From Nonomuraea sp. PA05 (GTDB lineage Bacteria > Actinomycetota > Actinomycetes > Streptosporangiales > Streptosporangiaceae), in NCBI RefSeq assembly GCF_008086045.1, contig NZ_VSEY01000002.1, forward strand, positions 310,001 to 374,000: a stretch of DNA of 64,000 nt. Direction: 5' to 3'. This document shows positions 4,218 through 28,414 of the stretch, piece by piece. The position numbers and the translations under genes are program-made. A model generated the notes under the pieces. It had not been told where the DNA came from and did no database searches. It worked only from the letters and a program-made list of their open reading frames with translations. The first letter of the stretch is position 1; each line of letters begins with the position of its first letter.

Positions 4218-5078
4218 TCAGCAGGCCGTGGCGAACTGGGCGGCGAGGTCGGTCAGCGTGGGTCCGAGCGGCGCGTCCAGGGTGAGCGTGGCGTCGGCGT
4301 CGCCGCCGGTGGGCCCCTGGTTGACGATGGCGATGGGGATGCCGAGCGAGGCGGCCTTCGTCACGAACCGCAGCCCCGACTTGATCGCCAGCGACGACCC
4401 GAGCACGAGCAGCGCCCGCGCCCCGCCCACGACGGCGAAGCACTCGTCCACGCGCGGCCTGGGCACGTTCTCGCCGAAGAACACCACGTCCGGTTTGAGC
4501 ACCCCGCCGCAGCCCGCGCAGCCGACCACCCGGAACCCGGCCACCTGCTCGTCGGTGAGCACGGCGTCGCCGTCGGGGTTGATCTGGCCGCCGGCGGCCT
4601 CCCAGGACGGGTTCGCCTCGCGCAGGCGGCGCTCCAGCTCGGCGCGGGGGGTGCGTTCCCTGCACGACAGGCAGACGACGCGGTCGAGGCCGCCGTGCAG
4701 CTCGATGACGCGCTGGGCGCCGGCCGCCTGGTGCAGGCCGTCCACGTTCTGGGTGACGATGCCGGCCAGCAGCCCGTGCCGCTCCAGCTCGGCGACGGCG
4801 CGGTGCCCGGCGTTGGGCCTGGCCGCGCCGATCTGCCGCCAGCCGACGTGGCTGCGCGCCCAGTACCGCTGCCGGGCCTCGGCGCTGCCGACGAAGCGCT
4901 GGTACGTCATCGGCTCGGCGCGCCTGGCCCGGCCCGTCGGGCCCCGGTAGTCGGGGATGCCCGACTCGGTGGACAGCCCGGCCCCGCTGAGCACGGCCAC
5001 CCTGCCGCGGGCGACCAGCTCTGCCAGCTCGGCCAGCCCCGTCACCTTCGTCGTGCGTGGCGTGGTGCTTGGTGTCAC
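4218..5078 (-). CDS. Sir2-family NAD-dependent protein deacylase
   Basis: This is a 286-residue sirtuin. The NAD-binding start VAVLSGAGLSTESGIPDYRG, TQNVDGLHQAAG with IELHG (catalytic His), a zinc site made of CLSC and CAGC, and VLGSSLAIKSG are all present. The GTG at 5078 is taken as the start because a GGAAGG stretch precedes it. It begins 14 bases after the stop of the ABC half-transporter upstream, so it probably belongs to the same transcript as the exporter pair and the LanB-like genes. NAD-dependent removal of acyl groups from lysine is family knowledge. A role in that operon is only suggested by position. Confidence 0.92.
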   Translation of the reverse strand: MTPSTTPRTTKVTGLAELAELVARGRVAVLSGAGLSTESGIPDYRGPTGRARRAEPMTYQRFVGSAEARQRYWARSHVGWRQIGAARPNAGHRAVAELERHGLLAGIVTQNVDGLHQAAGAQRVIELHGGLDRVVCLSCRERTPRAELERRLREANPSWEAAGGQINPDGDAVLTDEQVAGFRVVGCAGCGGVLKPDVVFFGENVPRPRVDECFAVVGGARALLVLGSSLAIKSGLRFVTKAASLGIPIAIVNQGPTGGDADATLTLDAPLGPTLTDLAAQFATAC

Positions 5079-5092
5079 CCTTCCATGGTGCC

Positions 5093-6871
5093 CTAAGCTC
5101 CGGTCTGCTCCTCCTGCGTGATCAGCTCGGCGATCAGCTCCGCGTGCCACAGCCGCCGCATCTCGGGGCAGCCGTCCAGCAGCTCGTCCAGCCGCCCGCG
5201 CCCGGCGACGCGGCCACGGTCGAGGACGATCACCTGGTCGGCGCGTTCGAGTGCGGCCTGCCGGTGGGAGACGACCAGCACGGTCTCCGGGCCGCGCCCC
5301 GCGATCCGCTCCCACAGGAGCCGCTCGGTCTCGACGTCCAGCGCGGAGGACAGGTCGTCCACCACCAGCAGGTCGGGTTCGCGGACGAGGGCGCGGGCGG
5401 CGGTGGCGCGCTGCACCTGCCCGCCGGACAGCCGCACCCCGCGCGGCCCGACGACCGTGCCGAGCCCGTCGGGCATCTCGGCCAGGTCCTGCTCGAACAC
5501 CGCCAGCTCCAGCGCCCGCCGGGCGTCGTCGTCGCTCGCGGGCCTGCCGAGCAGCAGGTTCTCCCGCAGGGACGCCGAGAACAGGCGGGGCACCTGGCCC
5601 GCGTACGCGGTACGGCCGGGGACGAGGAACGTGCCCGGGTCGGCGACCGGGGCGCCGTTCCACGCGATCGTGCCCTCGTCCAGCGGCAGGAGGCCGAGCA
5701 GGGCGCGTACCAGCGTGCTCTTGCCCGCCCCCACGGCCCCGGTGATCACGGTGAAGGAGCCGCGTTCGAGCCGCAGATCGACGCCGTGCAGCGCGCCGCG
5801 CACGGTCAGCCCGCGCGCTTCCAGCACTCGCAGCGGACCGGGGTGCGGGGGCGGCGGAGCGGCGGGCGGTGGGTCGTGGTGCAGCCAGACGTCGGCGCCC
5901 CGCGACAGGGTGCCGGCGTCCTCGTGCGGCGCCATCAGCGCGGTGAGCCGCTCCGTGGCGACCGCCGCCTGGGGCAGCCGGTAGAGGGTCGTGCCGATGG
6001 AGCGAGGCAGCGCGGTGAGCCAGCCGAGGTAGCTGGTGAACAGCGCCAGGTCCCCCACGGTGAAGTCGCCGCCGCGCATGGCGGGCGCGGCCAGCAGCAG
6101 CACCAGGCCGGTGCTCAGCTCGACGGTGGTGATGGTGGCGGCGTCCAGCAGGTCGGTGGCCATGCGGTCGCGGACGGCCGCGTCGCGCCGCCGCCGGTTG
6201 TGCTCGCGCAGCCGTTGCAGGGCCGCGAGCTCGGCGCCCGCGGTCTTGAGCGCGAGGACGCCGCCGAACACCTCGCCCACGTACGCCGTCACGGCCGCGC
6301 CGAGCCGCCTGGCCCGGCGGTGCAGCCTGGCCACGACCCGGTGCATCGACCTGCTCAGCACCCCGGCCGCGAGCATCGGCAGAACCAGCACCAGGGTGAT
6401 CAACGCATCGATCGAGGCCATGATCGGCAGGGCGACGGCCGCGAACAGCGTGGTTCCGACGAGGCTGACGCTCTCGTCGGTGAAGTCCACCGCGTCGGCC
6501 ACGTCGTCCCGCAGCCGGGCGACGCCCTCGCCCGAGGAGTGCGGCAGCCGCGCGGCGGCGGGGCCGCGCGCGGTCAGCACGGAGCGCAGCACGTTGGCGC
6601 GCAGCAGCGTCGCCGCCGCGTTCCACCAGTACACGCCGTACGTCCAGGCTACGACGATCACGACTCCGCGGACCAGCTCGACCCCGGCGAACGCGGCGCA
6701 CAACCACAGCGTGGCCTCCAGGGCGGCCGGCCGGTGCCCGCTGATCCGGTCGAAGACCTGCTGCAGGACGAGCCCGCCGGCCAGCGGGATCACGTGGACG
6801 GGCAGCCACAGCAGCGCCCCGATCAGGTACCTGCGCAGGTCGAACGTGGCCAGCCGGGTGGCCACCAGCAT
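5093..6871 (-). CDS. ABC exporter half-transporter (degenerate Walker B)
   Basis: The protein has 592 residues: a six-helix membrane domain (about residues 1-300) fused to an ATPase domain. Walker A is GAVGAGKST and the signature is LSGGQVQR. The Walker B is followed by Asp instead of the catalytic Glu (LLVVDDLSSALD). Together with the partner gene just upstream, which has the Glu but a degenerate signature, this fits a heterodimeric exporter with one consensus and one degenerate ATP site. ATG 6871 (or GTG 6874) begins 8 bases after the partner's stop codon. The likely role is export of the operon's peptide product, but other substrates are possible. Confidence 0.9.
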   Translation of the reverse strand: MLVATRLATFDLRRYLIGALLWLPVHVIPLAGGLVLQQVFDRISGHRPAALEATLWLCAAFAGVELVRGVVIVVAWTYGVYWWNAAATLLRANVLRSVLTARGPAAARLPHSSGEGVARLRDDVADAVDFTDESVSLVGTTLFAAVALPIMASIDALITLVLVLPMLAAGVLSRSMHRVVARLHRRARRLGAAVTAYVGEVFGGVLALKTAGAELAALQRLREHNRRRRDAAVRDRMATDLLDAATITTVELSTGLVLLLAAPAMRGGDFTVGDLALFTSYLGWLTALPRSIGTTLYRLPQAAVATERLTALMAPHEDAGTLSRGADVWLHHDPPPAAPPPPHPGPLRVLEARGLTVRGALHGVDLRLERGSFTVITGAVGAGKSTLVRALLGLLPLDEGTIAWNGAPVADPGTFLVPGRTAYAGQVPRLFSASLRENLLLGRPASDDDARRALELAVFEQDLAEMPDGLGTVVGPRGVRLSGGQVQRATAARALVREPDLLVVDDLSSALDVETERLLWERIAGRGPETVLVVSHRQAALERADQVIVLDRGRVAGRGRLDELLDGCPEMRRLWHAELIAELITQEEQTGA

Positions 6872-6879
6872 CACGGGCC

Positions 6880-8628
6880 TCACCGGCTCACCCCCGCCAG
6901 GTCGAGCAGCCGCCCGAACCTGCTGTCCGGGTCCGCGGCGAGCTCGTCGCGGCGGCCGTACTCGACGATCTTGCCGTGGTCGAGCACCGCGATCTTGTCC
7001 ACCCGGGACAGCGACGACAGGCGGTGCGCGATGATCACCGCGGTCCTGCCGTGGAGCAGGCGGCCGACGCTGTCCTCGATGCGGCGCTCGGTGGCCGGGT
7101 CGAGGCGGCTGGACGCCTCGTCGAGGACGACCAGCCCCGGGTCCGCGAGGAACGCCCGCGCGAACGCGATGAGCTGCGCCTGCCCCGCCGACACGCCGCG
7201 CAGCTCGGTGCCGAGCCCGTCGGGCAGCCCGGCCGCCCACTCGCCGAGGCCGACGCCGTGGAGCACCTCCATCAGCCGCTCGTCGCCGGGCGACGGCCTG
7301 AACAGCGTCAGGTTGTCGCGGACGCTGGCCGCGAAGAGCTGCACGTCCTGCGTGACCACGCCGATCCTGGTGCGCAGCGCGTGCGGGTCGGCCTCGCGCA
7401 GGTCCACGCCGCCCACCCGGACGGCGCCCTCCACGGGGTCGTGCAGCCGCAGCACCAGCCTGGCCAGCGTGGTCTTGCCGCTGCCCGTCCGCCCGACCAG
7501 GCCCAGCGTCTCGCCGGGCGCCAGCGTGACGTCGATCCCGGACAGCACCTGCTCGTCGTCGTCCGGGTAGCCGAACGCGACCCCTTCGACGCGCAGCCCG
7601 AGCGGCCCGGTGGCGGGCAGCGGGCGCGTGCCGGGGGTCAGCGCGGGCCGCTCCGCGAGCAGCGCCGCGATGCGGGCCAGCCCGGCCAGGGCCGCCTGGT
7701 ACTGCCTGATCTGGTCGATCAGCCGCTCGAACGGCGCCCGCACCATGAGCGTGTACTGGAAGAGCAGCACGGCGGTGCCGACCGTGAGCGTGCCCGCCTG
7801 CACCGTCCAGGCGGCCAGCCCCAGCATGATGGCCGTGCCCGCGGCGAACGCCACCGAGGTGCCGGCGAGCAGCGTGGTGCCGATGCGGGCGTCGCGCCGC
7901 TCGGCCTGGAACAAGGCGGCGGCGACCTGGTGGAAGCGGCGGACCGTGTGCTCGCCCGCGCCGTTGGCCCTGAGGTCCTCGGCGCCCGCCAGGCGCTCCT
8001 CCAGGGTGCCGAACAGCGTGGCGCTCGCGGCGCGGGAACGGGCCGCCGACGGCACGGCCAGCCGCTGGGCGCGCGCCATGCCGTACCCGATGAGCAGGCA
8101 GTACATCAGCAGCACCGCGCCGATGCGCCAGTCGACGGCGAACACCACGACGATCACGCCGGCCAGCAGCAGCACACTGGCCACCACGTCCAGCAGGAAC
8201 GCCACCACGAAGTCGGCGACCGCCACGACGTCGCCGTCCACCCGCTCGATCAGCTCGCCGGGCGTGTGGCGGCCGTGGAAGGCCAGGTCGAGGCCGAGCG
8301 CGTGGCCGGTCAGGCGCTCGCGCAGGCGGTTCGTGCCGTCCCAGGCCAGCCTGCTGGCCAGCCATGCCGTCACCATCCTGGCGGCCTGGCCCGCGACCGC
8401 GAGCCCCAGGTAGGCGAGGGCGACCAGCGTGAGGTGCCGGGTGCTCGCGCCGCCGATGGCGTCGTCCACGAACCGCCGGGTCACCTGCGGCGCGGCCAGC
8501 GGCAGCGCGGTCGCGGCGGCGATCGCGGCGGTCAGCGCCGCGCCGGCGCCCGGTCCTGGACGGAGCAGTCGTAGTACGGAGAGGTCAGAGGTCGATGCGG
8601 AAGAGGCCCCGGTATCGATCGAGCTCAA
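6880..8628 (-). CDS. ABC exporter half-transporter (partner)
   Basis: This is a 582-residue fused membrane/ATPase half-exporter. Six hydrophobic segments occupy residues about 20-300. Walker A is GRTGSGKTT and Walker B with the catalytic Glu is LVVLDEASSRLD. The signature is degenerate (VSAGQAQL). The only plausible start in frame is TTG 8628, which lies inside the 35-codon peptide gene (overlap 44 bases) and has no good RBS, so translation may be coupled to that peptide. The exact N-terminus is uncertain. It pairs with the next gene to make a heterodimeric exporter. Confidence 0.88.
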   Translation of the reverse strand: MSSIDTGASSASTSDLSVLRLLRPGPGAGAALTAAIAAATALPLAAPQVTRRFVDDAIGGASTRHLTLVALAYLGLAVAGQAARMVTAWLASRLAWDGTNRLRERLTGHALGLDLAFHGRHTPGELIERVDGDVVAVADFVVAFLLDVVASVLLLAGVIVVVFAVDWRIGAVLLMYCLLIGYGMARAQRLAVPSAARSRAASATLFGTLEERLAGAEDLRANGAGEHTVRRFHQVAAALFQAERRDARIGTTLLAGTSVAFAAGTAIMLGLAAWTVQAGTLTVGTAVLLFQYTLMVRAPFERLIDQIRQYQAALAGLARIAALLAERPALTPGTRPLPATGPLGLRVEGVAFGYPDDDEQVLSGIDVTLAPGETLGLVGRTGSGKTTLARLVLRLHDPVEGAVRVGGVDLREADPHALRTRIGVVTQDVQLFAASVRDNLTLFRPSPGDERLMEVLHGVGLGEWAAGLPDGLGTELRGVSAGQAQLIAFARAFLADPGLVVLDEASSRLDPATERRIEDSVGRLLHGRTAVIIAHRLSSLSRVDKIAVLDHGKIVEYGRRDELAADPDSRFGRLLDLAGVSR

Positions 8629-8692
8629 GAAGCGTCATGCCCTTTGCGTCGGAGGAGTCACTGAGCTGAGGGATCATGAACACTGCAGCCAT
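8585..8692 (-). CDS. 35-residue peptide, candidate RiPP precursor
   Basis: This small gene starts at ATG 8692 with a perfect AGGAGG at 8699-8704, six bases upstream, the best RBS in the operon. It encodes 35 residues, beginning MAAVFMIPQL, with a central SDSSDAKGMT (Ser11, Ser13, Ser14, Thr20) and ending YRGLFRIDL. It has no cysteine and no signal peptide. It lies 77 bases after the second LanB-like gene and overlaps the start of the ABC exporter gene. The position between LanB-family enzymes and an exporter suggests a substrate peptide. A leader peptide whose translation couples the exporter is the main alternative. I recognise no known precursor family. Confidence 0.6.
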   Translation of the reverse strand: MAAVFMIPQLSDSSDAKGMTLLELDRYRGLFRIDL

Positions 8693-8698
8693 CTCGGG

Positions 8699-8704
8699 CC
8701 TCCT
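8699..8704 (-). promoter_or_regulatory. strong ribosome binding site of the 35-aa peptide
   Basis: AGGAGG (reverse strand) is spaced six bases from ATG 8692. This site is the main argument that the short ORF is translated. Confidence 0.75.
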
Positions 8705-8769
8705 CACGGTGGTGGGCACGCTTCTCGTCCGGGAGTACACCAGGCCCCGGTCTCGCCCGGCAACCGAAT

Positions 8770-10686
8770 TTAGCGGGGCGCGGGACGTACGACGCAGCCC
8801 AGCCGCAGCTCCGCGCACTGCTCCCGGCCGTCCACCCGCCACCAGAGCTGCCCAGGGGCGGGCAGCATCTCGGTGATCAGCACCTCTGCCGGGTCGTGCC
8901 TGGCCAGGTCCTCGACGGCGAACGGGTCGCAGAAGTCGACGTAGAAGGGGGTGGGGGTGGCGGGGTGGTGGACGAAGACGTGGCGGGGCAGGTCACGTTC
9001 GCGGCGCAGGCGGTGGATGGCCAGCCAGCGGTCGAACGCGTCCGCGCCGCGCTCCGCCGGGAGGGGGACGCGCCAGCGGGCTCGCTGGTAGATCAAGTCG
9101 TCCAGGAGGATGCGGGGGGTGTGGGCGCCCAGGTCGATCTCGGGCGGCCGGTCGGGGAGCGGGCGCCGGTCGGGGCCCGGTGGGATGGGCGGGGGCCGGT
9201 CGGGGCCCGGTGGGATGGGCGGGCCGGGGAGCGGGTGCCGGGTGGGGCGGAGCTGGGCGGGGAGGGGGTCGTGGAGGGGGCGGCAGTCGGCGCGTACGCC
9301 GCACAGCAGCCACGTCGCCTCGTCCAGGGTGGGGCCGACGGCCATCAGGTCGGGGCCGGGAAGGGTGGGGCGGGCCTGGGTCCGGGTCCAGAGGTGGGTG
9401 GTGGCGCGGGCCACGTCCTGGCTGGTCAGCTTGATCACGTGCGGCGCGCTGTGGGTCAGCGCCTCAGCCGCGAGCCGCCGCTCGCTGCGGGTCAGCGCGT
9501 CGGACGCGAGCCGCTCCAGGGTCGTGGTGAGTGCGTGCAGGTGCGCGGGGTCGTCGGCGAGGAGCGTGGCCAGGTGCCACAGCGGCAACACCGCCGTGAG
9601 CGCCGCCCGCAGCCCGGTCAGCGCGCCGCCGCCTATCGTGACGCGTTCGCTGTACGGGCTGGAGCGCGCCTCGCGGAACACCTCGTGACGCTGCGGCCCC
9701 CGCGCCTCAGCGTCCCGCGACCGCCCGCCCCACCCGTGCGGATGCGGCCGCCCCTCGACCCCGCCCCGCGCAGGCCCGTCCCCCGCCGTCGCGCCTCTCG
9801 AAGGCCCGTCCCCCGCAAGAGCGCATCTCCCGGCCGAGTCCAGCGCTTCGAGCCGAGCGTCCTCGAAGTGCTCCGCCCGCCGGGGCCAGGGCGCGTCCGC
9901 GTACCGGGCCCGCAGCTCCTCCACCCGCCCCGCGTCCCCGACGTGCCGCGCCAGCCACTCACCCGCCTCGACGACCACCCGCTCGGGCCCCGGCTCCCCC
10001 ACCCGCAGCGCCCGCCCGTCCCCCGGCTCGAACCGCGCATACAGGACGGGCCCGCCGCCCCCGCCTCCGACCGTTAACCGCCGCAGTTGCCGGTGGGCCG
10101 CCGCGCTGAGCAGCCGGGAGCGCCTGGCCGTGCCGTCCCCCGGCCTGCGGGCGAGCGGATGCCGCACGATCGCCTGGTAGAAGGCGGGATCGGCGAGAAA
10201 GGCGGCCTCCCGTACGGACTCCTCGTCGTAGGCTTCCGCGACCTTGCGCCGCGTCACGAGCCAAGCGGCGGCGTAGGCGCTTCTGGCCGCCGCCCGTGCC
10301 GCCCCCGCCACGACCACGGCCGACTGCCACCGCCGCGCCCACTCCCCCAGCCCGAGCGACTCCAGCAGCCCCAGCTCCTCCCCGGACAGCGGCATCCCGG
10401 TGCGCACGCTCCTGATGCAGTGCCTGGCCTGTGCGCGCCGTTCGGGGACGAGCCCCAGGACGCTTCCGCGCATGGGGGCGGCCAGGCGTTCGAAGGCCCG
10501 CCGCTCGGCGGTCAGGCGGCGTTCGGCGGCGAGCAGCCGTTCGGTGAGCCGCCGCAGGCCGGGATGGCCCAGGCCGTCGAGCAGCGACACCGGCAGGCCG
10601 GTGGTGCGCAGCAGGAACCACGGGCACAGCTCGACGACGAGGTCTCCCCGCCCGCCGACCGCGCCGTCCCCCAGCCGCCCGCTCAC
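8770..10686 (-). CDS. LanB-family protein, short (lantibiotic dehydratase-like, no elimination domain)
   Basis: This is a 638-residue relative of the tRNA-dependent glutamylation domain of class I lantibiotic dehydratases. The N-terminus has the family pattern (ELCPWFLLRTTGLPVSLL). The middle has EAAFLADPAFYQAI, like the SFxSP/FYE region of actinomycete LanBs. The C-terminus is diagnostic: HTPRILLDDLIYQRARWRVP, PRHVFVHHP, FYVDFCDP, ITEMLPAPGQLWW and CAELRL. No SpaB_C-type elimination domain follows. It starts at GTG 10686, overlapping the previous stop codon by four bases (GTGA). A proline-rich insert with repeated PPGPDRPPPI lies near residues 490-530. It is shorter than typical LanB proteins (about 800-1000 residues). 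Confidence 0.8.
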   Translation of the reverse strand: MSGRLGDGAVGGRGDLVVELCPWFLLRTTGLPVSLLDGLGHPGLRRLTERLLAAERRLTAERRAFERLAAPMRGSVLGLVPERRAQARHCIRSVRTGMPLSGEELGLLESLGLGEWARRWQSAVVVAGAARAAARSAYAAAWLVTRRKVAEAYDEESVREAAFLADPAFYQAIVRHPLARRPGDGTARRSRLLSAAAHRQLRRLTVGGGGGGPVLYARFEPGDGRALRVGEPGPERVVVEAGEWLARHVGDAGRVEELRARYADAPWPRRAEHFEDARLEALDSAGRCALAGDGPSRGATAGDGPARGGVEGRPHPHGWGGRSRDAEARGPQRHEVFREARSSPYSERVTIGGGALTGLRAALTAVLPLWHLATLLADDPAHLHALTTTLERLASDALTRSERRLAAEALTHSAPHVIKLTSQDVARATTHLWTRTQARPTLPGPDLMAVGPTLDEATWLLCGVRADCRPLHDPLPAQLRPTRHPLPGPPIPPGPDRPPPIPPGPDRRPLPDRPPEIDLGAHTPRILLDDLIYQRARWRVPLPAERGADAFDRWLAIHRLRRERDLPRHVFVHHPATPTPFYVDFCDPFAVEDLARHDPAEVLITEMLPAPGQLWWRVDGREQCAELRLGCVVRPAPR

Positions 10687-12044
10687 CCGCGTCTCCCCGA
10701 CGCCTCGGCCCCGCCACCCGCCACGCCACGCCACGCGTCACCCGCTGCACCACCCGCTGCGCCGCCTGCCGCACCGCCCACCGCGCCGCCCACCACGCCG
10801 CCTGCCGCACCGCCCACCGCGCCGCCCACCACGCCGCCTGCCGCGCCCCCGGCAACCGCGCCCCCAGCCACCGTCCCACCGGCGGCCGTGTCCCCGGCGA
10901 CCGTGCAGGCGGCGAGCCGTCCCGGCGGGAGGTCGTGCAGCCGGTCGCGCCACGTCCTGATCGTGCTCGCCACCTCCCAAGCCCGCATGGTCTCTGGCGC
11001 GTCGAACTCGATCCACCGCGTCAGGTCGTCCCCCGCACGCGGCGGGAAGCGCACGCTGTGCCCGGCCCAGACCGTACGGATCCCCATCCGGTACGGCCGC
11101 AACCCCCCGAGCCGAACCCCGCCCGGCCCGTCCGCCAGCAGCTCCAGCGACTCCCCCACCACACCCGCGTCGATCCCCGGCGCGCCCACCGCCAGCTCGC
11201 ACGTCACCGGCGCCGGCATCGGGATCGCGGCCAGCAGGCGGCGGAGGTTGACGGTCATGCCGTTCAGCCCGGTCACGGCGGCCAGGAAGTCGATGCGCGT
11301 CACGATGATGGTCAGCCCCAGGCAGCGGGCCAGCGTGCCGAGGGGGAAGCGCGCCACCCGTACCGCGTCCAGCCTGCCCGCCCACGGGCCGCTCGGGGGC
11401 GGCGCGTCGCCTCCGGTCAGCCAGCGGACGTGGGTGCGGGAGCCGCCGGCGTACCAGCTCGGGCGGATCACCCGTTCGGGCGACCAGCTCAGCCACTCGG
11501 CCCCGGCCAGCTCGGGGACCCGCCGCAGCGCCGCGACCTGCTCGGCCACGAGCCGCCCGCACAGCGTCACCCGCTCCGCGCCGAGCGCCCGGACCAGCGC
11601 GAACGCGGCGGGAAGCTGCCGCTCGCCGTCCACCACGACGTGCACGCGCCGCTCCTTGGCTGCCTCCACCGCCTGGTCGATCTCGGGACGGAACAGCTCG
11701 CACCTGGCGGCGGCGGTGAGCACGTCGCGGCTGCTCTGCGTGCTGCCCTCGGCCAGTTCGAGCCCGTCGATGCTGAGCCGGAGGGCGGGGTCGCCAGCCA
11801 GGCGCAGCGCCGTGCCGACGGCTCGCAGGTGCGCGTCGTCGTAGCCTGCCCGCTCGATGACGGCCGCCGCCCGCCCGGCCGGGGCGGTGTGCGGCCCGCC
11901 GGGGCGTCCTGCGGCGGCGCGCAGGAGGGAGGGGTCGGCGAGGCGCTCGACGACGCGGGTGCCCAGGTCGAGCACCTCGGTGCCGGGCGGCGGGACGATC
12001 TCGGTGGTGAAGTCGGTGAACGGGGGGATGACCAGAAGTTCCAT
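10683..12044 (-). CDS. unrecognised protein resembling a B12-type radical SAM enzyme without the CxxxCxxC motif
   Basis: The protein has 453 residues. It opens MELLVIPPFTDFTTEIVPPP, which resembles the start of cobalamin-binding radical SAM proteins (LLxxPPF...PPLG). Later stretches such as RRVHVVVDGERQLPAAFALV and AERVTLCGRL look like alternating TIM-barrel strands and helices. No CxxxCxxC cluster motif is present; its few cysteines are scattered. The C-terminal 60 residues are Gly/Ala/Val repeats (AGGVVGGAVGG). It starts at ATG 12044, sharing one base with the preceding stop (TGATG), and ends in a GTGA overlap with the short LanB gene, so the three are translationally coupled. The function is unknown; a cofactor-free partner or scaffold for the LanB proteins is a guess. 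Confidence 0.7.
   Translation of the reverse strand: MELLVIPPFTDFTTEIVPPPGTEVLDLGTRVVERLADPSLLRAAAGRPGGPHTAPAGRAAAVIERAGYDDAHLRAVGTALRLAGDPALRLSIDGLELAEGSTQSSRDVLTAAARCELFRPEIDQAVEAAKERRVHVVVDGERQLPAAFALVRALGAERVTLCGRLVAEQVAALRRVPELAGAEWLSWSPERVIRPSWYAGGSRTHVRWLTGGDAPPPSGPWAGRLDAVRVARFPLGTLARCLGLTIIVTRIDFLAAVTGLNGMTVNLRRLLAAIPMPAPVTCELAVGAPGIDAGVVGESLELLADGPGGVRLGGLRPYRMGIRTVWAGHSVRFPPRAGDDLTRWIEFDAPETMRAWEVASTIRTWRDRLHDLPPGRLAACTVAGDTAAGGTVAGGAVAGGAAGGVVGGAVGGAAGGVVGGAVGGAAGGAAGGAAGDAWRGVAGGGAEASGRRG
10735..10870 (-). repeat. Gly/Ala-coding tandem repeat
   Basis: Repeats of about 12 bases, also arranged in a longer ~48-base unit, encode the C-terminal AGGVVGGAVGG tail of the radical-SAM-like protein. 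Polymerase slippage is a likely origin. Confidence 0.8.
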
Positions 12045-15000
12045 CAACCGCCCTCTCCGGGCCAGGGGTAGGGGTGTGCCGGACGGCCCCGCAAGTTCTC
12101 CGGCCGGGGCCGCAGGTCGTCCGCGCGAGGCCGCAGGTCGTCCGTGCGGGGCCGCAGGTCATCCATGCGGGGCCGCAGGTCATCCGCGCGGGGCCGCAGG
12201 TCGTCCAGCCTGGGGCGCCGATCCGTGGTGCGCGGGCCGGAGAGCTGCGGCTGTCCTTCCCACGCCGCCCCGCGCCGCTCCATCCACCGCGCGGCGGCGG
12301 CCCCTCGCGACGGCTGCGCGGGCTGTCGCAGACCTCTGACAGCCTGCTGGACCGGCCCGGACAACCGCCGCACCTCCTGTACGGACCGGTTCGTCCTTTG
12401 AGCGGAGCCGTCACGCCCTCGCGACTCACCGGCCACCTCCGGCCGCACGCCACCACCCGCACGCTCCCCGGCCGCACGCTCCCCGGCCGCACGCTCCCCG
12501 GCCGCCGCCCTCTCCCCGCCCTGCGCGGGAGATCCGGCAGGCCGCAGGTAGACGCACCGCAACTCGGCCGCGAACCGCCGCTCCCCCTCCCGCAGCCAGC
12601 ACTCCCCCGGCCCCGGCAACACCTCGGTCACCGTGACCTCGTCGGCGGAGGCGGCCAGGCGGGCCAGCCCTTCGAGCAGCGCCGGCGCACGCGTGTCCAC
12701 GTAGAAGGAGCGCCGCTCCCGCGCCGTGGACGCGAAGAACGCCACCGGCAGGTCGTGGGCCTCCCGCAGCCGCGCCATCGCCACCAGCAGCTCACGATCG
12801 CCCCCGGCCTGCTCCAGCGCCTCGAACGAGGCGCGCCCCACCCGCCACAGCCGCCGCGAGAAGACCACGTTGTCCCAGGTCAGCCGTGGCACGCGGGCCA
12901 GCTCGCGAAGCCTCGGCAATCGCACCCTGGGCAGCGCGAACGCCGTGTGCAACGCCGTGTCGTGCTCGCCGTTGTGCAGCAGCAGCGGCTCCTCCATCCC
13001 CTTGGCGTACAGGACGGCCCGCTGCCCGTCGCTGTGCACGTACAGCTCGTCCAGCCCGATCCGCCGCCGCCTCGGGTCGGCCGCCACCCCGCCGAGCTCC
13101 AGCACAGGGCCGGGCAGCTCCAGCGGCGGAACGCCGTTGGAGCGGCGCGAGACGACGTTCAGCACGGTGAACCCGGACAGCGCCCGCCTGATCCCGGTGT
13201 CCCGCTCGGCCAGGCACGCGGCGCGTTCCTCGTGGAACTGCAACGCCCACGGGGTGAGCAGCACCGCGTCGTGAATTCTGCTGAGGACCAGCGGGGTCAC
13301 CCCCGCCTCGTACGCCTCCAGCGCGGGCGCGGCCACCATGACGTCGGCCGAGCAGAGCACCGGGGCGGCGGGCGCGGCCGGTGCGGGGAGCAGTCCGGCG
13401 AGGTTCAGCTCGGTGGTGCCGGCGGGCGAGTCGCGGACGAGGGCGGCGATGCGCTCGTCCAGCCGGTCGCCGTGCTCGATCTCCAGGTCGCCGGTCGAGC
13501 GCAGCACCTCGGCCAGCTCGTACGTGCCCGGCCCGAGCCTTCCGGCCAGCAGCCGGTTGGTGCGCTGCCTGGTCAGCTCGGCCTCCTCGGCGAGCAGGTC
13601 GAGCACCCTCGGCACGCGGCCCCGCAGGTCGGCGGCCAGCCCGTCGCCGACGGTGACCCGTAGCGTGCCGGCGGCGGCCTCGTGCACGATCGCCCGGTCG
13701 TCGCGGCGCCCGCCGCCGGCCAGCGCCTCGATCCGGCGTTGCACGGCCAGCTTCACGTCGGGTGACGCGCCGGGGTACTGGGCCAGCAGCTCGCTGATCT
13801 CGCCGACGCGCCTGCCGAGCGGGAGGTCGGCGTCCTGGGCGGGGCGGGTGCCGATGATCGCGCGGGCGCGCTGCGCCGGTACGCCGGGGCGGGACACGAA
13901 CGGTCTTCGGGGTACTCCCGAGGCCAGCATCCTGCTTACGCGCGCCTCCCGTCCGCCCGCGCTCTCCTCCCCCGGGCCACGGCCCTTCCGGGTACGGCCC
14001 TCGGCCTCGGCGCACCCGCACTCGCAAGCGCCCGAAGCCGCCCTGGCCCGCATCCCCTCACCCCGCGCCACACCGTCACGCGCCCGGTCACCACGCGCCA
14101 CACTGTCACGCGCCACACCGTCACGCGCCACACCGTCACGCGCCACACCGTCACGCGCCACACCGTCACGCGCCACACCGTCACGCGCCACACCGTCACG
14201 CGCCACACCGTCACGCGCCACACCGTCACGCGCCACACCGTCGCGGGCCGTACCCTCGCGGGCCTCGTCACCCCCCGCCACCGGCACCCCCTTGGCGACC
14301 AGCCGCTCACGCAACCACCCGAGCGTGTCGCAGACGGTGGCGGGCGGGCACAGGTCGTGGGTGAGCAGCCCGCGCCGCACCGCCACGGCCATCGCCGCCG
14401 AGGCCCGCTCCACACCCGCCCCCGTCTCGGCCGCGATCTCGGCCAGCGTGCGCCCGCCGTCGCAGTGCCCCACGAAGGCGGCCCCGTCGAGCACCTCCCC
14501 CGTCCATGTCTTGCGGCGCGGCACCAGCCCGGCGACGAGCGCGGGCTCGGCGAGCACGCGCTGCTGCAACGCCTCGCCCACCCGCGCCGCCGGGAACGCC
14601 ACCCGCCGCGCGTACTCGGCGGCGCCCGCCCACGTGTGGCCGCCGCGTTCCCCCGGGGCGACGACTCCGTAGTTGACGGGCCCGTAGCAGCCCGCCGTCT
14701 CGCACGACGCCGACAGCCGCTGTACCTGTTCGGCGAGCTCGCGGCGGATCTTGCCGCTCTTGGCGCCGCGTCGCAGGTCGCGGTAGAGGGCGGGCGCGGA
14801 GCACACGAGGGCGTCGAGGAAGCGCTCGTCGGCGACGATCCCCGCCACTGCGGCCCTGCCGAGCGCGGCGTCCCCGGTGACCAGGCCGGACAGCGTGAGC
14901 CTGGCCTCCTCCAGCCGCCCGGTCACCTCGTTCCACGCCGCCAGCCAGCCGGCCGGGGCGGGCGTGCCGTCCGGCAGGGGCCGCAGGGCGCGCAGGCGTC

Positions 15001-15319
15001 CGCGCAGGCCACGCGGCAACCGCCCGCTCCCCGCCCAGCCGCTTCCCGCCCGCCCAGGGGACGCGTCGGGCGGGCCAGCGTCGGGCGGGCTTGCGTCGGG
15101 CGGGCCAGCGTCGGGCGGGCTTGCGTGGGACGGGCGGGCGTCGGTGTCGTGGCCAGGCGGCTCGGCGAGCAACTCGCGAGCCTCCCGCTCCAGCCCCGCG
15201 ACCACCACCGCACTCTCCGCCGCCCGCGAGTAGACGAGGGACATGACGAGCTCCCAGGAAAACCCGGCGCTCCGGACGACCACGGCCGGCAGCAGGTTCC
15301 AGTCGTGCTCGATGTCCAT
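12044..15319 (-). CDS. LanB-family protein, long (lantibiotic dehydratase-like, no elimination domain)
   Basis: This is a 1091-residue protein of the lantibiotic dehydratase N-terminal (tRNA-glutamate-dependent) family. Signs are PAVVVRSAGFSWELV at residues 11-25, SASCETAGCYGPVNYGVV (compare the usual CAKNET..FFGPVNYG) near 205, a middle region with LSRIHDAVLLTPWALQF, and the C-terminal VPRLTWDNVVFSRRLWRV, SFYVDTRAPALL, VTEVLPGPGECWL and AELRCVYLRP. No SpaB_C domain follows; the last 150 residues are low complexity with DDLRPRxx repeats. Three repeat tracts enlarge it (residues about 58-88, 343-418, 1034-1075). ATG 15319 has GGGAG upstream. It is the first gene of the operon. Family knowledge suggests aminoacyl-tRNA use, either for Ser/Thr glutamylation or for amino-acid addition as in PEARL enzymes. 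Confidence 0.82.
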   Translation of the reverse strand: MDIEHDWNLLPAVVVRSAGFSWELVMSLVYSRAAESAVVVAGLEREARELLAEPPGHDTDARPSHASPPDAGPPDASPPDAGPPDASPGRAGSGWAGSGRLPRGLRGRLRALRPLPDGTPAPAGWLAAWNEVTGRLEEARLTLSGLVTGDAALGRAAVAGIVADERFLDALVCSAPALYRDLRRGAKSGKIRRELAEQVQRLSASCETAGCYGPVNYGVVAPGERGGHTWAGAAEYARRVAFPAARVGEALQQRVLAEPALVAGLVPRRKTWTGEVLDGAAFVGHCDGGRTLAEIAAETGAGVERASAAMAVAVRRGLLTHDLCPPATVCDTLGWLRERLVAKGVPVAGGDEAREGTARDGVARDGVARDGVARDGVARDGVARDGVARDGVARDGVARDGVARDSVARGDRARDGVARGEGMRARAASGACECGCAEAEGRTRKGRGPGEESAGGREARVSRMLASGVPRRPFVSRPGVPAQRARAIIGTRPAQDADLPLGRRVGEISELLAQYPGASPDVKLAVQRRIEALAGGGRRDDRAIVHEAAAGTLRVTVGDGLAADLRGRVPRVLDLLAEEAELTRQRTNRLLAGRLGPGTYELAEVLRSTGDLEIEHGDRLDERIAALVRDSPAGTTELNLAGLLPAPAAPAAPVLCSADVMVAAPALEAYEAGVTPLVLSRIHDAVLLTPWALQFHEERAACLAERDTGIRRALSGFTVLNVVSRRSNGVPPLELPGPVLELGGVAADPRRRRIGLDELYVHSDGQRAVLYAKGMEEPLLLHNGEHDTALHTAFALPRVRLPRLRELARVPRLTWDNVVFSRRLWRVGRASFEALEQAGGDRELLVAMARLREAHDLPVAFFASTARERRSFYVDTRAPALLEGLARLAASADEVTVTEVLPGPGECWLREGERRFAAELRCVYLRPAGSPAQGGERAAAGERAAGERAAGERAGGGVRPEVAGESRGRDGSAQRTNRSVQEVRRLSGPVQQAVRGLRQPAQPSRGAAAARWMERRGAAWEGQPQLSGPRTTDRRPRLDDLRPRADDLRPRMDDLRPRTDDLRPRADDLRPRPENLRGRPAHPYPWPGEGG
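12109..12213 (-). repeat. 21-bp tandem repeat, five copies
   Basis: Five copies of a 21-base unit beginning GCCGCAGGTC (plus strand) encode the C-terminal DDLRPRxD repeats of the long LanB-like protein. Confidence 0.88.
14105..14239 (-). repeat. 15-bp tandem repeat, nine perfect copies
   Basis: Nine identical copies of GTCACGCGCCACACC, with degenerate copies on both sides (about 14070-14260), encode a VARDG repeat in the long LanB-like protein. Perfect identity indicates recent expansion. There are no spacers, so it is not a CRISPR array. Confidence 0.92.
15055..15130 (-). repeat. Pro/Asp-coding tandem repeat
   Basis: About five units of roughly 15 bases (GCGTCGGGCGGGCCA-like) encode PDAGPPDASPPDAG near residues 60-88 of the long LanB-like protein. 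They form a proline-rich insert between the N-terminal strand and the rest of the fold. Confidence 0.8.
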
Positions 15320-15741
15320 ATGGGCGGCTCCCTATCCAGACATGAATTTGTTGTTCCGCGTCTCAACTCAGATATTTACAAGATCATTTTCGTGTGTCAA
15401 TGGATACCGAGATTAGAAGAAAATGAGAACCAGGAAACCCCGCCCACCAACAACGGCAAATCCCACCATAAAGGGCAGCACTGTTTACTTTCCGTAGCCA
15501 GCCCGCCTATCCTTGCAGCACAGAGCGTCAACACCGCTCTGAAAAGCGCATTTCCCAATGCGCCGCGCCGCCCGTCGATTTCCCCGCCATTCAAATCACC
15601 GCGGGACGTTCGCCCGGATATTAATGCGCTCGAAGGCGTTCCCATTCGCACGCCAGGGCAAGGTGCGGTCAAGGGCGCGTGCCAGTGCGCCGAAGAGGAG
15701 AAACGGACTGATAGAAGGTGACATGAGGTGAAGGGAGAGCG
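15320..15741. other. divergent intergenic region, AT-rich
   Basis: These 422 bases separate the LanB-like operon (minus) from the PP2C phosphatase gene (plus). The stretch about 15340-15610 is notably low in GC. It holds the operon promoter. A minus-strand 82-codon ORF (15397-15645) ends inside the -35 box and lacks an RBS, so it is not called. Nothing else coding was seen. Confidence 0.6.
15373..15400 (-). promoter_or_regulatory. sigma-70-type promoter of the LanB-like operon
   Basis: On the minus strand, TTGACA (15400-15395) and TAAATA (15378-15373) are separated by 16 bases. The predicted transcript starts near 15366, giving a leader of about 47 bases before ATG 15319 with GGGAG as RBS. 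The surroundings are markedly AT-rich compared with the rest of the window. Confidence 0.6.
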
Positions 15742-23968: not shown

Positions 23969-24874
23969 CTACCTTGCCTGCTCCTCATTCCGCATCGCGC
24001 CAGTTAGCGAGCACGATTCGGTATCGATACCACCAAGTACGTTGAACCAGACACTGTGTTGCGGTGAGCCGTGCCCGACCGGCAGCCCCGCCACGATCGG
24101 CACTCCGAGCGGCTTCAGCCGGTCCTCCAGAACGGGGTACGGATCGCCGCACTTCACCCACGACCCCAGCGCGATCCCGCGCACCCCGTCGAACACGCCG
24201 ACCTGCAGAAGCTGGGTCAGCATGCGGTCGATCCTGTACGGCTCCTCCCCCACGTCCTCCAGGAATGCGATCGCCCCGTCGAACGACGGCTGCCACCGCG
24301 TGCCGCACATGGAGGCGATCAGCGACAGGTTCCCGCCGCGCACCACGCCCTCGGCCCGCCCCGGCGCCAGCACCCGGTCACCGGCGACCGTGCCGGGCGT
24401 GCCGGGCGTGCCGAAGAGCGCCGCGCGCAGGCTCTCCCAGGTCCGCGGCTCCGGCCCGTTCTCGTCGCCCGCGATGACGTCGCAGGCGGCCATCGGCCCG
24501 TGCAGGGTGGCCACGCCCAGCTCGATGGCGAACGCGTTGTGCAGCGCCGTGATGTCGCTCGACCCGAGCAGCACCTTGGGGCCCGCCTCACGCATCAGGT
24601 CCCAGTCGAGCAGGTCGAGCAGGCGCGCGGCGCCGTACCCGCCCCTGGAACAGAACACGCCGGAGACGGCCGGGTCGCACCAGGCGGCCTGGAGGTCGGC
24701 GGCTCTGGCGGCGTCGTCGCCCGCCAGGTAGTCGAGACCCTGGCGGTCGAGGACGTGCTCGCCCGCGATCACCTTGAGCCCGAGTGACTCCAGCCGCTGG
24801 ATGCCGCGCCTGAGCAGCACGGCGTTGGGCGGTCCTGACGGGGAGACGACGGCGACGGTGTCACCTGGCCGCAT
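23969..24874 (-). CDS. LD-carboxypeptidase (peptidase family S66)
   Basis: The protein has 301 residues. VAVVSPSGPP opens the family fold, FCSRGGYGAARLLD lies near residue 75, and LLGSSDITALHNAF holds the nucleophilic Ser of S66 peptidases. FLEDVGEEPYRIDRML carries the catalytic Glu, and GLPVGHGSPQHSV the catalytic His. Family members cleave the L,D bond of recycled muropeptides (LdcA) or inactivate microcin C-like compounds (MccF). It overlaps the end of the upstream sirtuin gene by 14 bases, so the two are co-transcribed. No signal peptide indicates a cytoplasmic enzyme. Confidence 0.92.
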   Translation of the reverse strand: MRPGDTVAVVSPSGPPNAVLLRRGIQRLESLGLKVIAGEHVLDRQGLDYLAGDDAARAADLQAAWCDPAVSGVFCSRGGYGAARLLDLLDWDLMREAGPKVLLGSSDITALHNAFAIELGVATLHGPMAACDVIAGDENGPEPRTWESLRAALFGTPGTPGTVAGDRVLAPGRAEGVVRGGNLSLIASMCGTRWQPSFDGAIAFLEDVGEEPYRIDRMLTQLLQVGVFDGVRGIALGSWVKCGDPYPVLEDRLKPLGVPIVAGLPVGHGSPQHSVWFNVLGGIDTESCSLTGAMRNEEQAR

Positions 24875-25598
24875 CGATCAGCTCCTTGACGAGAGCGGGT
24901 AGTGCCTGGCCGATCGGCTCGGCGATGACCCGGTCGGCGAACGGATCATACGGGGTGGGCTGGGCGTTCACGATCACCAGCCGGGCGCCGGCGTCGAGCG
25001 CCTCGCCGCACAGCCCGGCGGCGGGATGCACGGTCAGCGAGGTGCCGACCGCCACGAACAGGTCGCACGAGCGGGCCGCGTCGAGCGCCGCGTCGATCAC
25101 CTCGCGCTTGAGGTTCTGCCCGAACGAGATGGTGTTCGACTTCTGGATGCCGCCGCAGCGCGGGCACGGCGGGTCGTCCTCACCCGCGGCCACCCTGGCG
25201 AGCACCTCCTCCATGGGGGTGATCAGGTCGCAGGACAGGCACTCGGCGCGGCGCATGGTGCCGTGCAGCTCGATGACCTTCCCGGGCGAGGAGCCGGCGA
25301 GCTGGTGCAGCTCGTCGATGTTCTGCGTGATGAGCGCGCGCAGCAGCCCGGCGTGCTCCAGCTCGACCAGCGCGTGGTGGGCGACGTTCGGCTTCGCCTG
25401 CCACGCCGGGGACTCCAGCCTGGCCTGCCACGTGGCGCGCCTGACGTCGGGGTCGGCGAGGTAACGATCGATCGTGGCGTTGGCCTCGGCCTGCGGATTC
25501 TTCGTCCAGACCCCCTGCGGCCCCCGGAAGTCGGGGATGCCGGAGTCGGTGGAGATGCCCGCACCGGTCAGCACCGACACTGAGGTTGGCTCGTTCAC
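24861..25598 (-). CDS. Sir2-family NAD-dependent protein deacylase (second copy)
   Basis: This is a 245-residue sirtuin. VSVLTGAGISTDSGIPDFRG, ITQNIDELHQLAG, IELHGTM (catalytic His) and the zinc cysteines CLSC and CPRCGG are present, as is VGTSLTVHP. It differs clearly from the sirtuin at 4218-5078 and is not a recent duplicate. GTG 25598 is the likely start; no RBS is visible and the divergent sulfotransferase gene begins only a few bases away, so the transcript may be leaderless. It overlaps the LD-carboxypeptidase gene by 14 bases. Confidence 0.92.
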   Translation of the reverse strand: MNEPTSVSVLTGAGISTDSGIPDFRGPQGVWTKNPQAEANATIDRYLADPDVRRATWQARLESPAWQAKPNVAHHALVELEHAGLLRALITQNIDELHQLAGSSPGKVIELHGTMRRAECLSCDLITPMEEVLARVAAGEDDPPCPRCGGIQKSNTISFGQNLKREVIDAALDAARSCDLFVAVGTSLTVHPAAGLCGEALDAGARLVIVNAQPTPYDPFADRVIAEPIGQALPALVKELIDAAR

Positions 25599-26527: not shown

Positions 26528-28414
26528 TCAGGCGGCCGGACTGCCCGCGGAGCTGAACTGGGTGCGGTAGAGCTCGGCGTAGAGCCCGCCGCGCGCCAGC
26601 AGCTCCTCGTGACCGCCGCGCTCGGCCACCCGGCCGTCGTGGATGACGAGGATCTCGTCGGCCTCCCTGATCGTCGACAGCCGGTGCGCGATGACCAGCG
26701 ACGTACGCCCCCGCAACGCGGTCTTCAGCGCCACCTGCACCGCGGCCTCCGACTCCGAGTCGAGGTGCGCGGTGGCCTCGTCGAGCACGACCACGCGGGG
26801 CGCCTTCAGCAGCAGCCGGGCCAGCGCCAGCCGCTGCTTCTCGCCGCCGGACAGCCGGTAGCCGCGATCCCCGACCACGGTGTCCAGCCCGTCGGGCAGG
26901 CTCTCGACCAGCTCGCCGATCTGCGCCGCGCGCAGCGCCTGCCAGATCTCCTCGTCGCTCGCGCCGGGCCTGGCGTAGCGGAGGTTGGCGCCGATCGTGT
27001 CGTGGTAGAGGTGGGCGTCCTGCATGACCACGCCGACGGTGTCGCGCAGCGAGTCGAGGGTGGCGTCGCGCACGTCGAGCCCGTTGATCCGCACCGCGCC
27101 CTCGTTGACGTCGTACAGCCGCGACACCAGCGAGGTGATCGTGGTCTTGCCCGCCCCGCTGTGCCCGACGAGCGCGATGAGCTGCCCGGGCGCGGCGGTG
27201 AACGACACGCCCTTCAGCACGGGGTACGACGGGCCGCTGTCCTGCCTGGCCACCGACTCCAGCGAGGCCAGCGACACCTCCTCGGCGGCCGGGTAGCGGA
27301 AGCGCACGTCGTCGAATTCGATCGTCACCGGCCCTTCCGGCACGGGCACGGCGTCCGGCTTCTGCGCCACCATGGGCTTGAGGTCGAGGATCTCGAAGAC
27401 CCGGTCGAAGCTGACGAGCGCGGTCATCACGTCCACGTGCACGTTCGACAGCGACGTGAGAGGCCCGTACAGGCGCATCAGCAGCGCGGTCAGCGCCACC
27501 AGCGTGCCCAGCTCGAACGCCCCGGACACGGCCAGCACCCCGCCGATGCCGTAGACCAGCGCGGTGGCGAGGGCCGCGACCAGGCCGAGCGCGACCCGGA
27601 ACACGGTGCCGTACATGCCGACGGTCACGCCGACGTCGCGCACCCTGGCCGCGCGGGCGCCGAACACGGCGGCGTCGTCCTCCGGCCTGCCGTACAGCTT
27701 GGCGACCATGGCGCCGGCGACGTTGAAGCGCTCGGTGGTGACGGAGCTCATCTCGGCGTCGAGCTGCATCTGCTCGCGGGTCAGCGCCGACATGCGGCGG
27801 CCGACGTACTTGGCGGGCACGACGAAGATCGGCAGCAGCACCAGCGCGACCAGCGTCACCTGCCACGACAGCGCCAGCATCGCGCCCAGCACGAGCACCA
27901 GGCTGACCACGTTGGACACGACCGAGGACAGCGTGCTGGTCAGCGCGCGCTGGGCGCCGATCACGTCGGTGTTGAGCCTGCTGACCAGCGCGCCGGTCTG
28001 CGCGCGCATGAAGAACGCGACCGGCATGCGCTGCACGTGGTCGAACACCTCGGTGCGCAGGTCGTAGATCAGCCCTTCGCCGATGCGCGCCGAGAACCAC
28101 CGCTGCACCAGCGTCAGCACGGCGTCCACCACCGCGAGCCCCGCGATGGCCACGGCCAGGCCGATCACCACGCTCGTCCGACCGGGCAGGATGCCGTCGT
28201 CGATGATCGCCTTCATCAGCAGCGGGTTGGCGATCACGATCACCGCGCCCGCCACGACGAGCAGCAGGAACGCCGCAATCTGCCGGGTGTACGGCCGCGC
28301 GTAGCGCGCGATGCGCCGCACCGTGCCTGGACGCAGCCGCTGCTTGGTGACCGAACCGTCGCGCCGCAGGGACATCATCGTGCCGGGGCCGAAGCCGCCG
28401 CCCATCATCGCCAT
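26528..28414 (-). CDS. ABC exporter (fused membrane and ATPase domains)
   Basis: The 628-residue half-exporter has six hydrophobic segments in residues about 40-330. Its ATPase has Walker A GHSGAGKTT, signature LSGGEKQR, Walker B VVVLDEATAHLD and H-loop IAHRLST, all consensus, so it can work as a homodimer. The N-terminus MAMMGGGFGPGTMMSLRRD is a common actinomycete variant. ATG 28414 has AGGAGG upstream. The substrate is unknown. It is convergent with the sulfotransferase gene. Confidence 0.93.
   Translation of the reverse strand: MAMMGGGFGPGTMMSLRRDGSVTKQRLRPGTVRRIARYARPYTRQIAAFLLLVVAGAVIVIANPLLMKAIIDDGILPGRTSVVIGLAVAIAGLAVVDAVLTLVQRWFSARIGEGLIYDLRTEVFDHVQRMPVAFFMRAQTGALVSRLNTDVIGAQRALTSTLSSVVSNVVSLVLVLGAMLALSWQVTLVALVLLPIFVVPAKYVGRRMSALTREQMQLDAEMSSVTTERFNVAGAMVAKLYGRPEDDAAVFGARAARVRDVGVTVGMYGTVFRVALGLVAALATALVYGIGGVLAVSGAFELGTLVALTALLMRLYGPLTSLSNVHVDVMTALVSFDRVFEILDLKPMVAQKPDAVPVPEGPVTIEFDDVRFRYPAAEEVSLASLESVARQDSGPSYPVLKGVSFTAAPGQLIALVGHSGAGKTTITSLVSRLYDVNEGAVRINGLDVRDATLDSLRDTVGVVMQDAHLYHDTIGANLRYARPGASDEEIWQALRAAQIGELVESLPDGLDTVVGDRGYRLSGGEKQRLALARLLLKAPRVVVLDEATAHLDSESEAAVQVALKTALRGRTSLVIAHRLSTIREADEILVIHDGRVAERGGHEELLARGGLYAELYRTQFSSAGSPAA

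Follow-up and report, generated by a model that had tools for sequence, protein, structure and literature searches.

Positions 4218 to 15400 of a 64,000-nucleotide stretch of DNA from Nonomuraea sp. PA05 (the window; contig NZ_VSEY01000002.1 of a 13.1-Mb genome) hold a minus-strand operon related to ammosamide-type (pearlin) clusters. Reading of the open reading frames (ORFs) gives the order LanB1, P0007, LanB2, a 35-amino-acid (35-aa) ORF, the exporter halves ABC1 and ABC2, and a sirtuin. A preliminary description of this DNA had given the same ORFs, order, and strand, and had noted the TGATG and GTGA overlaps; all of this is confirmed from the sequence, the LanB1 stop overlapping the P0007 start (TGATG at 12044-12047) and the P0007 stop overlapping a possible LanB2 GTG start (GTGA at 10683-10686). 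The promoter proposed there is supported as well: all 11 loci looked at retain the block ATTGACA...GATCTTGT ahead of LanB1. Pfam and NCBIfam models identify the exporter halves and the sirtuin, and no LanB or radical S-adenosylmethionine (SAM) model of these collections matches LanB1, LanB2, or P0007. A literature search turned up no publication describing such a locus in Nonomuraea. The features of the locus, all on the minus strand, are as follows.

15373 to 15400, minus strand: operon promoter (TTGACA, 16 nucleotides, TAAATA), from the sequence and a conserved block
12044 to 15319, minus strand: LanB1, 1091 aa, AmmB2-slot PEARL relative without SpaB_C, from the tree, fold, and profile searches
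13844 to 14257, minus strand: low-complexity insert of LanB1 with GVARD repeats, holding a CECG motif, from the sequence and the predicted local distance difference test (pLDDT)
12053 to 12076, minus strand: C-terminal motif HPYPWPGE of LanB1, following a hypervariable linker, from comparison of relatives
10683 to 12044, minus strand: P0007, Amm10 family, radical-SAM-like fold without the cysteine motif, from alignment, model, and PMC12715798
10686 to 10895, minus strand: Gly/Ala-rich disordered tail of P0007, replacing the region of its relatives published as RRE-like in Amm10, from alignment and model
8770 to 10686, minus strand: LanB2, 638 aa with an uncertain start, PEARL relative of the AmmB4 slot that has lost segments, from tree and alignment
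8585 to 8692, minus strand: 35-aa ORF, probable leader or coupling ORF of the exporter, from cross-locus comparison
6880 to 8628, minus strand: ABC1, exporter half, first possible start a TTG inside the 35-aa ORF, from Pfam/NCBIfam and comparison
5093 to 6871, minus strand: ABC2, exporter half, from Pfam/NCBIfam
4218 to 5045, minus strand: sirtuin (SIR2), a genus-core neighbor that is not island specific, from Pfam/NCBIfam and genus comparison

The preliminary description had held that the two LanB proteins lack an elimination domain, and this proved correct. SpaB_C is absent from both, the PF14028 matches of the host genome falling only on contigs C119 and C35, and LanB1 is predicted to fold as a LanB. 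At E ≤ 0.001 its model matches 11 PDB chains, every one a LanB-type entry (GodF we take to be one of them, without a family search), and the best of them is TbtB (E = 2.4e-19). The structure prediction proposed earlier as a check on LanB1 therefore returned the expected fold. In the proposed profile searches, SpaB_C was negative for both LanBs, and PF04738 stayed under its cut-off of 28 bits in a genome scan (22.2 and 21.0 bits for LanB1 and LanB2). The LanB1 of a relative, L050, matches PF04738 at 76.5 bits. Because neither SpaB_C nor LanC occurs among the operon genes, we rejected an ordinary class I lanthipeptide cluster, as had been claimed from the outset.

In a tree of PEARLs, LanB1 groups with the Streptomyces uncialis protein L071_7512, and LanB2 groups with L074-L076 and a Kitasatospora gene, each with a Shimodaira-Hasegawa approximate likelihood ratio (SH-aLRT) support of 100. 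(The tree also held wrong-frame ORFs from the host genome, L115_own_+0, L116_own_-0, L117_own_+2, and L117_own_-0, which sit apart and were ignored.) This phylogeny places LanB1 in the AmmB2-slot clade, that is, with the second PEARL gene (the Trp-adding PEARL) of the S. uncialis ammosamide-type cluster, and LanB2 in the AmmB4-slot (fourth-PEARL) clade. In that cluster, L071, the order is AmmA-like peptide, C1, LanBx, LanB1, Amm10, LanB3, TldD, TldE, DAO, glyoxalase, a 277-aa protein, FMN reductase, and LanB4; the last is cut, and its best match is the LanB2 of the window (33%). The kinship with PEARLs suspected in the preliminary description is thus borne out, and its view of the system as undescribed is not: the system is of a known kind and apparently descends from the ammosamide type.

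Several components of that type were not found. None of the 54 Nonomuraea genomes searched contains the exact K[IV]APLALA-type pattern of an AmmA-type scaffold, although a diverged scaffold could escape the pattern. An AmmC1/BhaC1-type TPR flavoenzyme (query picked from L050 by position) has no match in the host genome and only weak matches of 65 to 162 residues in 6 of the 54. Searching the operon genes, and these only, revealed no AmmB1- or AmmB3-type PEARL, no TldD/E, and no Amm14-type oxidase. It is therefore unlikely that a pyrroloiminoquinone is made here by the known route.

For the Trp-adding PEARL BhaBCTrp, PMC11962472 names Asp558, Glu813, and Arg815 as phosphorylation residues and Tyr205, Arg208, and Arg429 as tRNA-end residues, places Arg34 near the carboxylate, and describes the R208A, Y205A, and R429A mutants as strongly impaired; the same paper reports that two PEARLs can do without the part of the substrate predicted to be bound by the RRE, the recognition element for ribosomally synthesized and post-translationally modified peptides (RiPPs). 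We mapped these residues onto the LanBs by motif spacing, leaving Arg429 unmapped; the ATP-site Asp, Glu, and Arg are residues 542, 801, and 803 of TglB. All 28 PEARL-type rows from full clusters hold R34, Y/F205, R208, D558, a His, the Lys of RKP, E813, and R815. The Nonomuraea counts rest on 19 LanB1 proteins, namely, 18 rows (with L035 re-read in the right frame, and with L004 and L030, one species' locus, counted once) and L114; a LanB1 core occurs in two further genomes, for a total of 21, but G034 was left out because it runs into a contig end and L045 because its frame is broken. Y205 is lost in 18 of the 19 and the Lys also in 18, E813 in 7, R208 in 3, and D558, the His, and R815 in 1 each. 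Across seven LanB2 proteins, Y205 and the Lys are lost in all seven, the His in six, D558 in five, and E813 and R34 in one each. The LanB1 of the window retains R34, R208, D558, the His, E813, and R815 and has Arg at the Lys position. At the Tyr205, Arg208, and Lys-of-RKP positions, the window has Q, R, and R in LanB1 and Q, R, and T in LanB2, and the ATP-site Asp, Glu, and Arg are present in both proteins. In the Nonomuraea LanBs, erosion has thus reached residues that are believed to contact the end of the tRNA.

LanB2 has also been shortened. Compared with L074-L076, it is without the CETxSFFGP segment, the winged-helix region, and approximately 100 core residues, including part of the C-terminal core, and these deletions are largely common to the other Nonomuraea LanB2 rows. 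Elsewhere in the host genome, contigs C119, C124, and C35 (L001-L003, L115-L117) carry other LanB-type genes (PF04738) at separate loci. PF14028 domains accompany those on C119 and C35, and the C124 gene (row L115) keeps the tested PEARL positions except R197 and Q201; rows L116 and L117 do not.

P0007 had been described as a radical SAM lookalike without a cluster, a description that stands. The best structural matches of its model are the radical SAM enzymes RimO, TsrM, and AprD4, with middling Z scores (8.5, 8.3, and 8.2), and the C-x2-4-C-x2-3-C motif is present in 0 of 22 aligned family members. Foldseek returned nothing for P0007 at E ≤ 0.001, PDB sequence searches with P0007 and with its alignment returned nothing relevant, and matches to PHROGs were discounted because they fall in the Gly/Ala-rich tail. 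P0007 fits the Amm10 family. Amm10 itself is characterized in PMC12715798 as an RRE joined to an AprD4/TsrM-like protein without the cysteines, of unclear role. The RRE-like C-terminal region is absent from P0007 of the window and of L004, L031, L041, L042, and L044; it is present in L033, L034, L037, L038, L043, L045, and ten rows from outside Nonomuraea.

The account that we favor, and consider probable, is that the operon is a reduced, exapted, and weakened PEARL/Amm10 descendant of an ammosamide-type cluster, lying beside a leader-controlled exporter. LanB1 would still be LanB folded and would keep the Asp, Glu, and Arg for phosphorylating a peptide C terminus; it appears to have lost a conserved contact with the tRNA 3' end and the conserved Lys. 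Because of these two losses, LanB1 may work weakly, act on another acceptor, or, alongside P0007 and the shortened LanB2, serve as a noncatalytic partner.

The main competing explanation is slow decay, in which the LanB and Amm10 genes would be functionless ammosamide-type remains and only the exporter and the sirtuin would matter. The history of the site gives this explanation weight. The island lies between a gene that we take, without a family search, to be PP2C-like and the sirtuin (a halogenase-like gene is presumably such on the same footing), and sister genomes display many stages at this one site. Full islands occur in the window, L030, L033, L035, L041, and L042. LanB2 is lost in L034 and L044; Amm10 is lost in L088, L089, L091, and L093; Amm10 is kept and LanB1 lost in L032 and L043; LanB1 stands without an exporter in L031, L037, L038, L045, L102, and L114; L099 holds an exporter remnant; and L092 is an empty site. 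Among the 54 genomes, the LanB1 core is found in 21, P0007 in 16, and ABC1 (E ≤ 1e-150) in 22. This stepwise loss speaks for decay, as do the loss of the active-site Glu in 7 of 19 LanB1 proteins, the frameshifts in L035 and L045, the low-complexity expansion in LanB1, and the ratios of nonsynonymous to synonymous substitution rates (dN/dS; Nei-Gojobori, without codon-bias correction), which rise to 0.34-0.54 for P0007 and LanB1 against farther relatives, where the sirtuin gives 0.20-0.28. Against decay, the ratios between the window and its closest relatives (L030, L041, and L042) are low, at 0.17-0.21 for P0007, 0.24-0.34 for LanB1, and 0.37-0.42 for LanB2, so that P0007 is there as constrained as the sirtuin (0.15-0.20); the ABC genes give 0.18-0.39 and the PP2C-like gene 0.33-0.51. 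The retention of the promoter block in the 11 loci looked at, and that of the HPYPWPGE tail with silent third-position changes, also speak against it. Pairs of Glu-less LanB1 proteins give 0.13-0.44. Taking both sides together, we regard decay as an unlikely but serious contender.

A much poorer fit is the RiPP system proposed in the preliminary description, in which the LanBs would modify the 35-aa peptide and the ABC pair would export it. Its attractions are the co-location of the genes and the existence of peptide counterparts of 31 to 35 aa in 18 of 44 loci scanned. In this respect the peptide proposed earlier is real as an ORF; its partnership with the LanBs is what fails. The counterpart lies directly before ABC1 in 17 of the 18 loci, and the family shares a purine-rich ribosome site and the block (K/E)GMT. 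In all 18 loci, the ABC1 frame has a TGA stop and, no more than three codons after it, a TTG, so that ABC1 can start no earlier than this TTG; in the window the TTG lies inside the 35-aa ORF. The conserved half of the peptide is the ABC1 start region, identical down to silent bases in most loci, and the conserved block contains two rare CTT codons (CTT makes up 5 of the 442 Leu codons in six operon genes). ABC1 is immediately preceded by the ORF in 17 of its 22 genomes, and the 5 without it (L106 and L108-L111) have the exporter elsewhere in the genome; L090 has retained the ORF and lost ABC1. The ORF is missing from all six loci with LanB1 and no exporter, and L107 and L113 have both ORF and exporter with no LanB in the fetched stretch and no LanB1 core match in their genomes. 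Since the ORF occurs with the exporter and independently of the LanBs, we assign it to the exporter and rejected it as a RiPP precursor. No protease or elimination domain is found among the operon genes, and we judge the RiPP reading very improbable.

By analogy with known leader peptides, the likeliest role of the 35-aa ORF is leader-controlled translation of the exporter. The exporter pair would then be a separate drug-type module, its translation coupled to, and probably regulated by, this ORF through the TTG start. In both loci checked, L106 and L111, the exporter lies directly downstream of a match, under the curated cut-offs, to an Otr(A)-type tetracycline ribosomal protection gene. The sirtuin is a genus-wide neighbor; it is present in 51 of the 54 Nonomuraea genomes and adjoins the empty site too, and on these grounds we rejected the earlier view of it as a member of the system. 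The window also has a second sirtuin homologue at 24870-25580 (34% identity), near an ABC exporter at 26594-28312 (30% to ABC1), with similar spacing of the two in L099 and L102.

The remaining proposals concern the unusual parts of LanB1. Its model has pLDDT below 50 at residues 355-492, corresponding to the insert, whose CECG motif is possibly a metal site; the motif is kept in the window, L030, L031, L033, L041, L042, and L088. LanB1 has also gained a disordered C-terminal tail, modeled with low confidence, in which the HPYPWPGE codons vary at silent sites among relatives. Loss of the scaffold may have led to a tRNA-independent AmmB2-type PEARL with its ATP site kept and an RRE-less Amm10 partner, acting on its own HPYPWPGE or on a new acceptor; we offer this as a long shot. 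Least probable of all is that LanB1, still a ligase, acts in cis on its own tail in place of AmmA: HPYPWPGE or a close form (HPYP[WY]...) behind the hypervariable linker ends 11 of 12 LanB1 proteins in which the active-site Glu is retained and none of the 7 Glu-less ones, but the tree reduces this to a single joint loss and one independent pair, so that no statistics are possible and we rejected the correlation as not significant; moreover, L114 keeps Glu and Lys without the tail, L045 has Gln for Glu and a PYPW remnant, and the model shows a disordered tail.

If a tRNA-independent LanB1 were real, ligation that had come to depend on tRNA would have reverted to an ATP-grasp-like form. The erosion series is in any case a collection, supplied by nature, of PEARL pathways caught partway through dismantling, revealing which PEARL residues fail first without a scaffold. 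Several small gene sets without a known scaffold keep an AmmB2-slot PEARL and Amm10 adjacent, which points to this PEARL as a candidate partner of Amm10. The tie is not strict, as some species keep one alone, yet the pairing makes the question of the Amm10 role testable. The analysis also sets aside a peptide that was probably mistaken for a precursor, and it proposes a previously unreported leader ORF of a drug-type exporter.

Full ammosamide-type clusters were found in genera related to Nonomuraea. Such PEARL clusters occur in Actinomadura, Thermocatellispora, and Marinitenerispora (L050-L056, L065, L066, L069, L070, L072, and L073). In the type represented by Actinomadura chibensis, A. macra, and A. 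syzygii, only two LanB genes lie within the stretch seen, and its product may therefore differ. A linear plasmid of Kitasatospora sp. NBC_00039 (L059, 768000-790000; also L005) bears an ammosamide-type cluster with seven LanB-type genes by blastp; its 40-aa scaffold ORF (13192-13314 of L059, ..LDDIEFSLDEIENKIAPLALA) is missing from the PLSDB gene table. Scaffold peptides in L071 (3037-3189), L053 (695-1450), and L054 (1463-1642) have an extra C-terminal stretch beyond IAPLALA, which would need to be removed before a PEARL could act.

Among known systems, leader-peptide control (translation attenuation) of resistance genes is the comparison for the exporter. As there, a short conserved ORF overlaps the gene start. 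The ABC pairs near the Otr(A)-like genes of other Nonomuraea are alike in sequence (80% identity to ABC1 in L106 and 77% over 401 residues in L111), and the island differs in having the 35-aa leader ORF upstream instead. P0007 shares with the Amm10 family a TsrM/AprD4-like model, the lack of the cysteine motif, and a position adjoining an AmmB2-slot PEARL, whereas the group to which the window belongs has the Gly/Ala-rich tail in place of the C-terminal RRE-like region. Like TglB, BhaBCTrp, and AmmB1-4, LanB1 combines a LanB fold with the lack of an elimination domain and has the phosphorylation-site Asp, Glu, and Arg; unlike them, the LanBs of the operon carry other residues in place of Tyr205 and the RKP Lys, have no scaffold found with them, and in LanB2 have lost large segments. 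Finally, the amm cluster and the orthologous S. uncialis DCA2648 cluster (L071) differ from the Nonomuraea operon, which is without genes of the AmmA, C1, B1, B3, TldD/E, and Amm14 types and has eroded PEARL residues, an Amm10 lacking its C-terminal region, and an ABC pair preceded by the leader ORF. What they share with it are the AmmB2-, Amm10-, and AmmB4-slot genes, the first two of them adjacent and overlapping.

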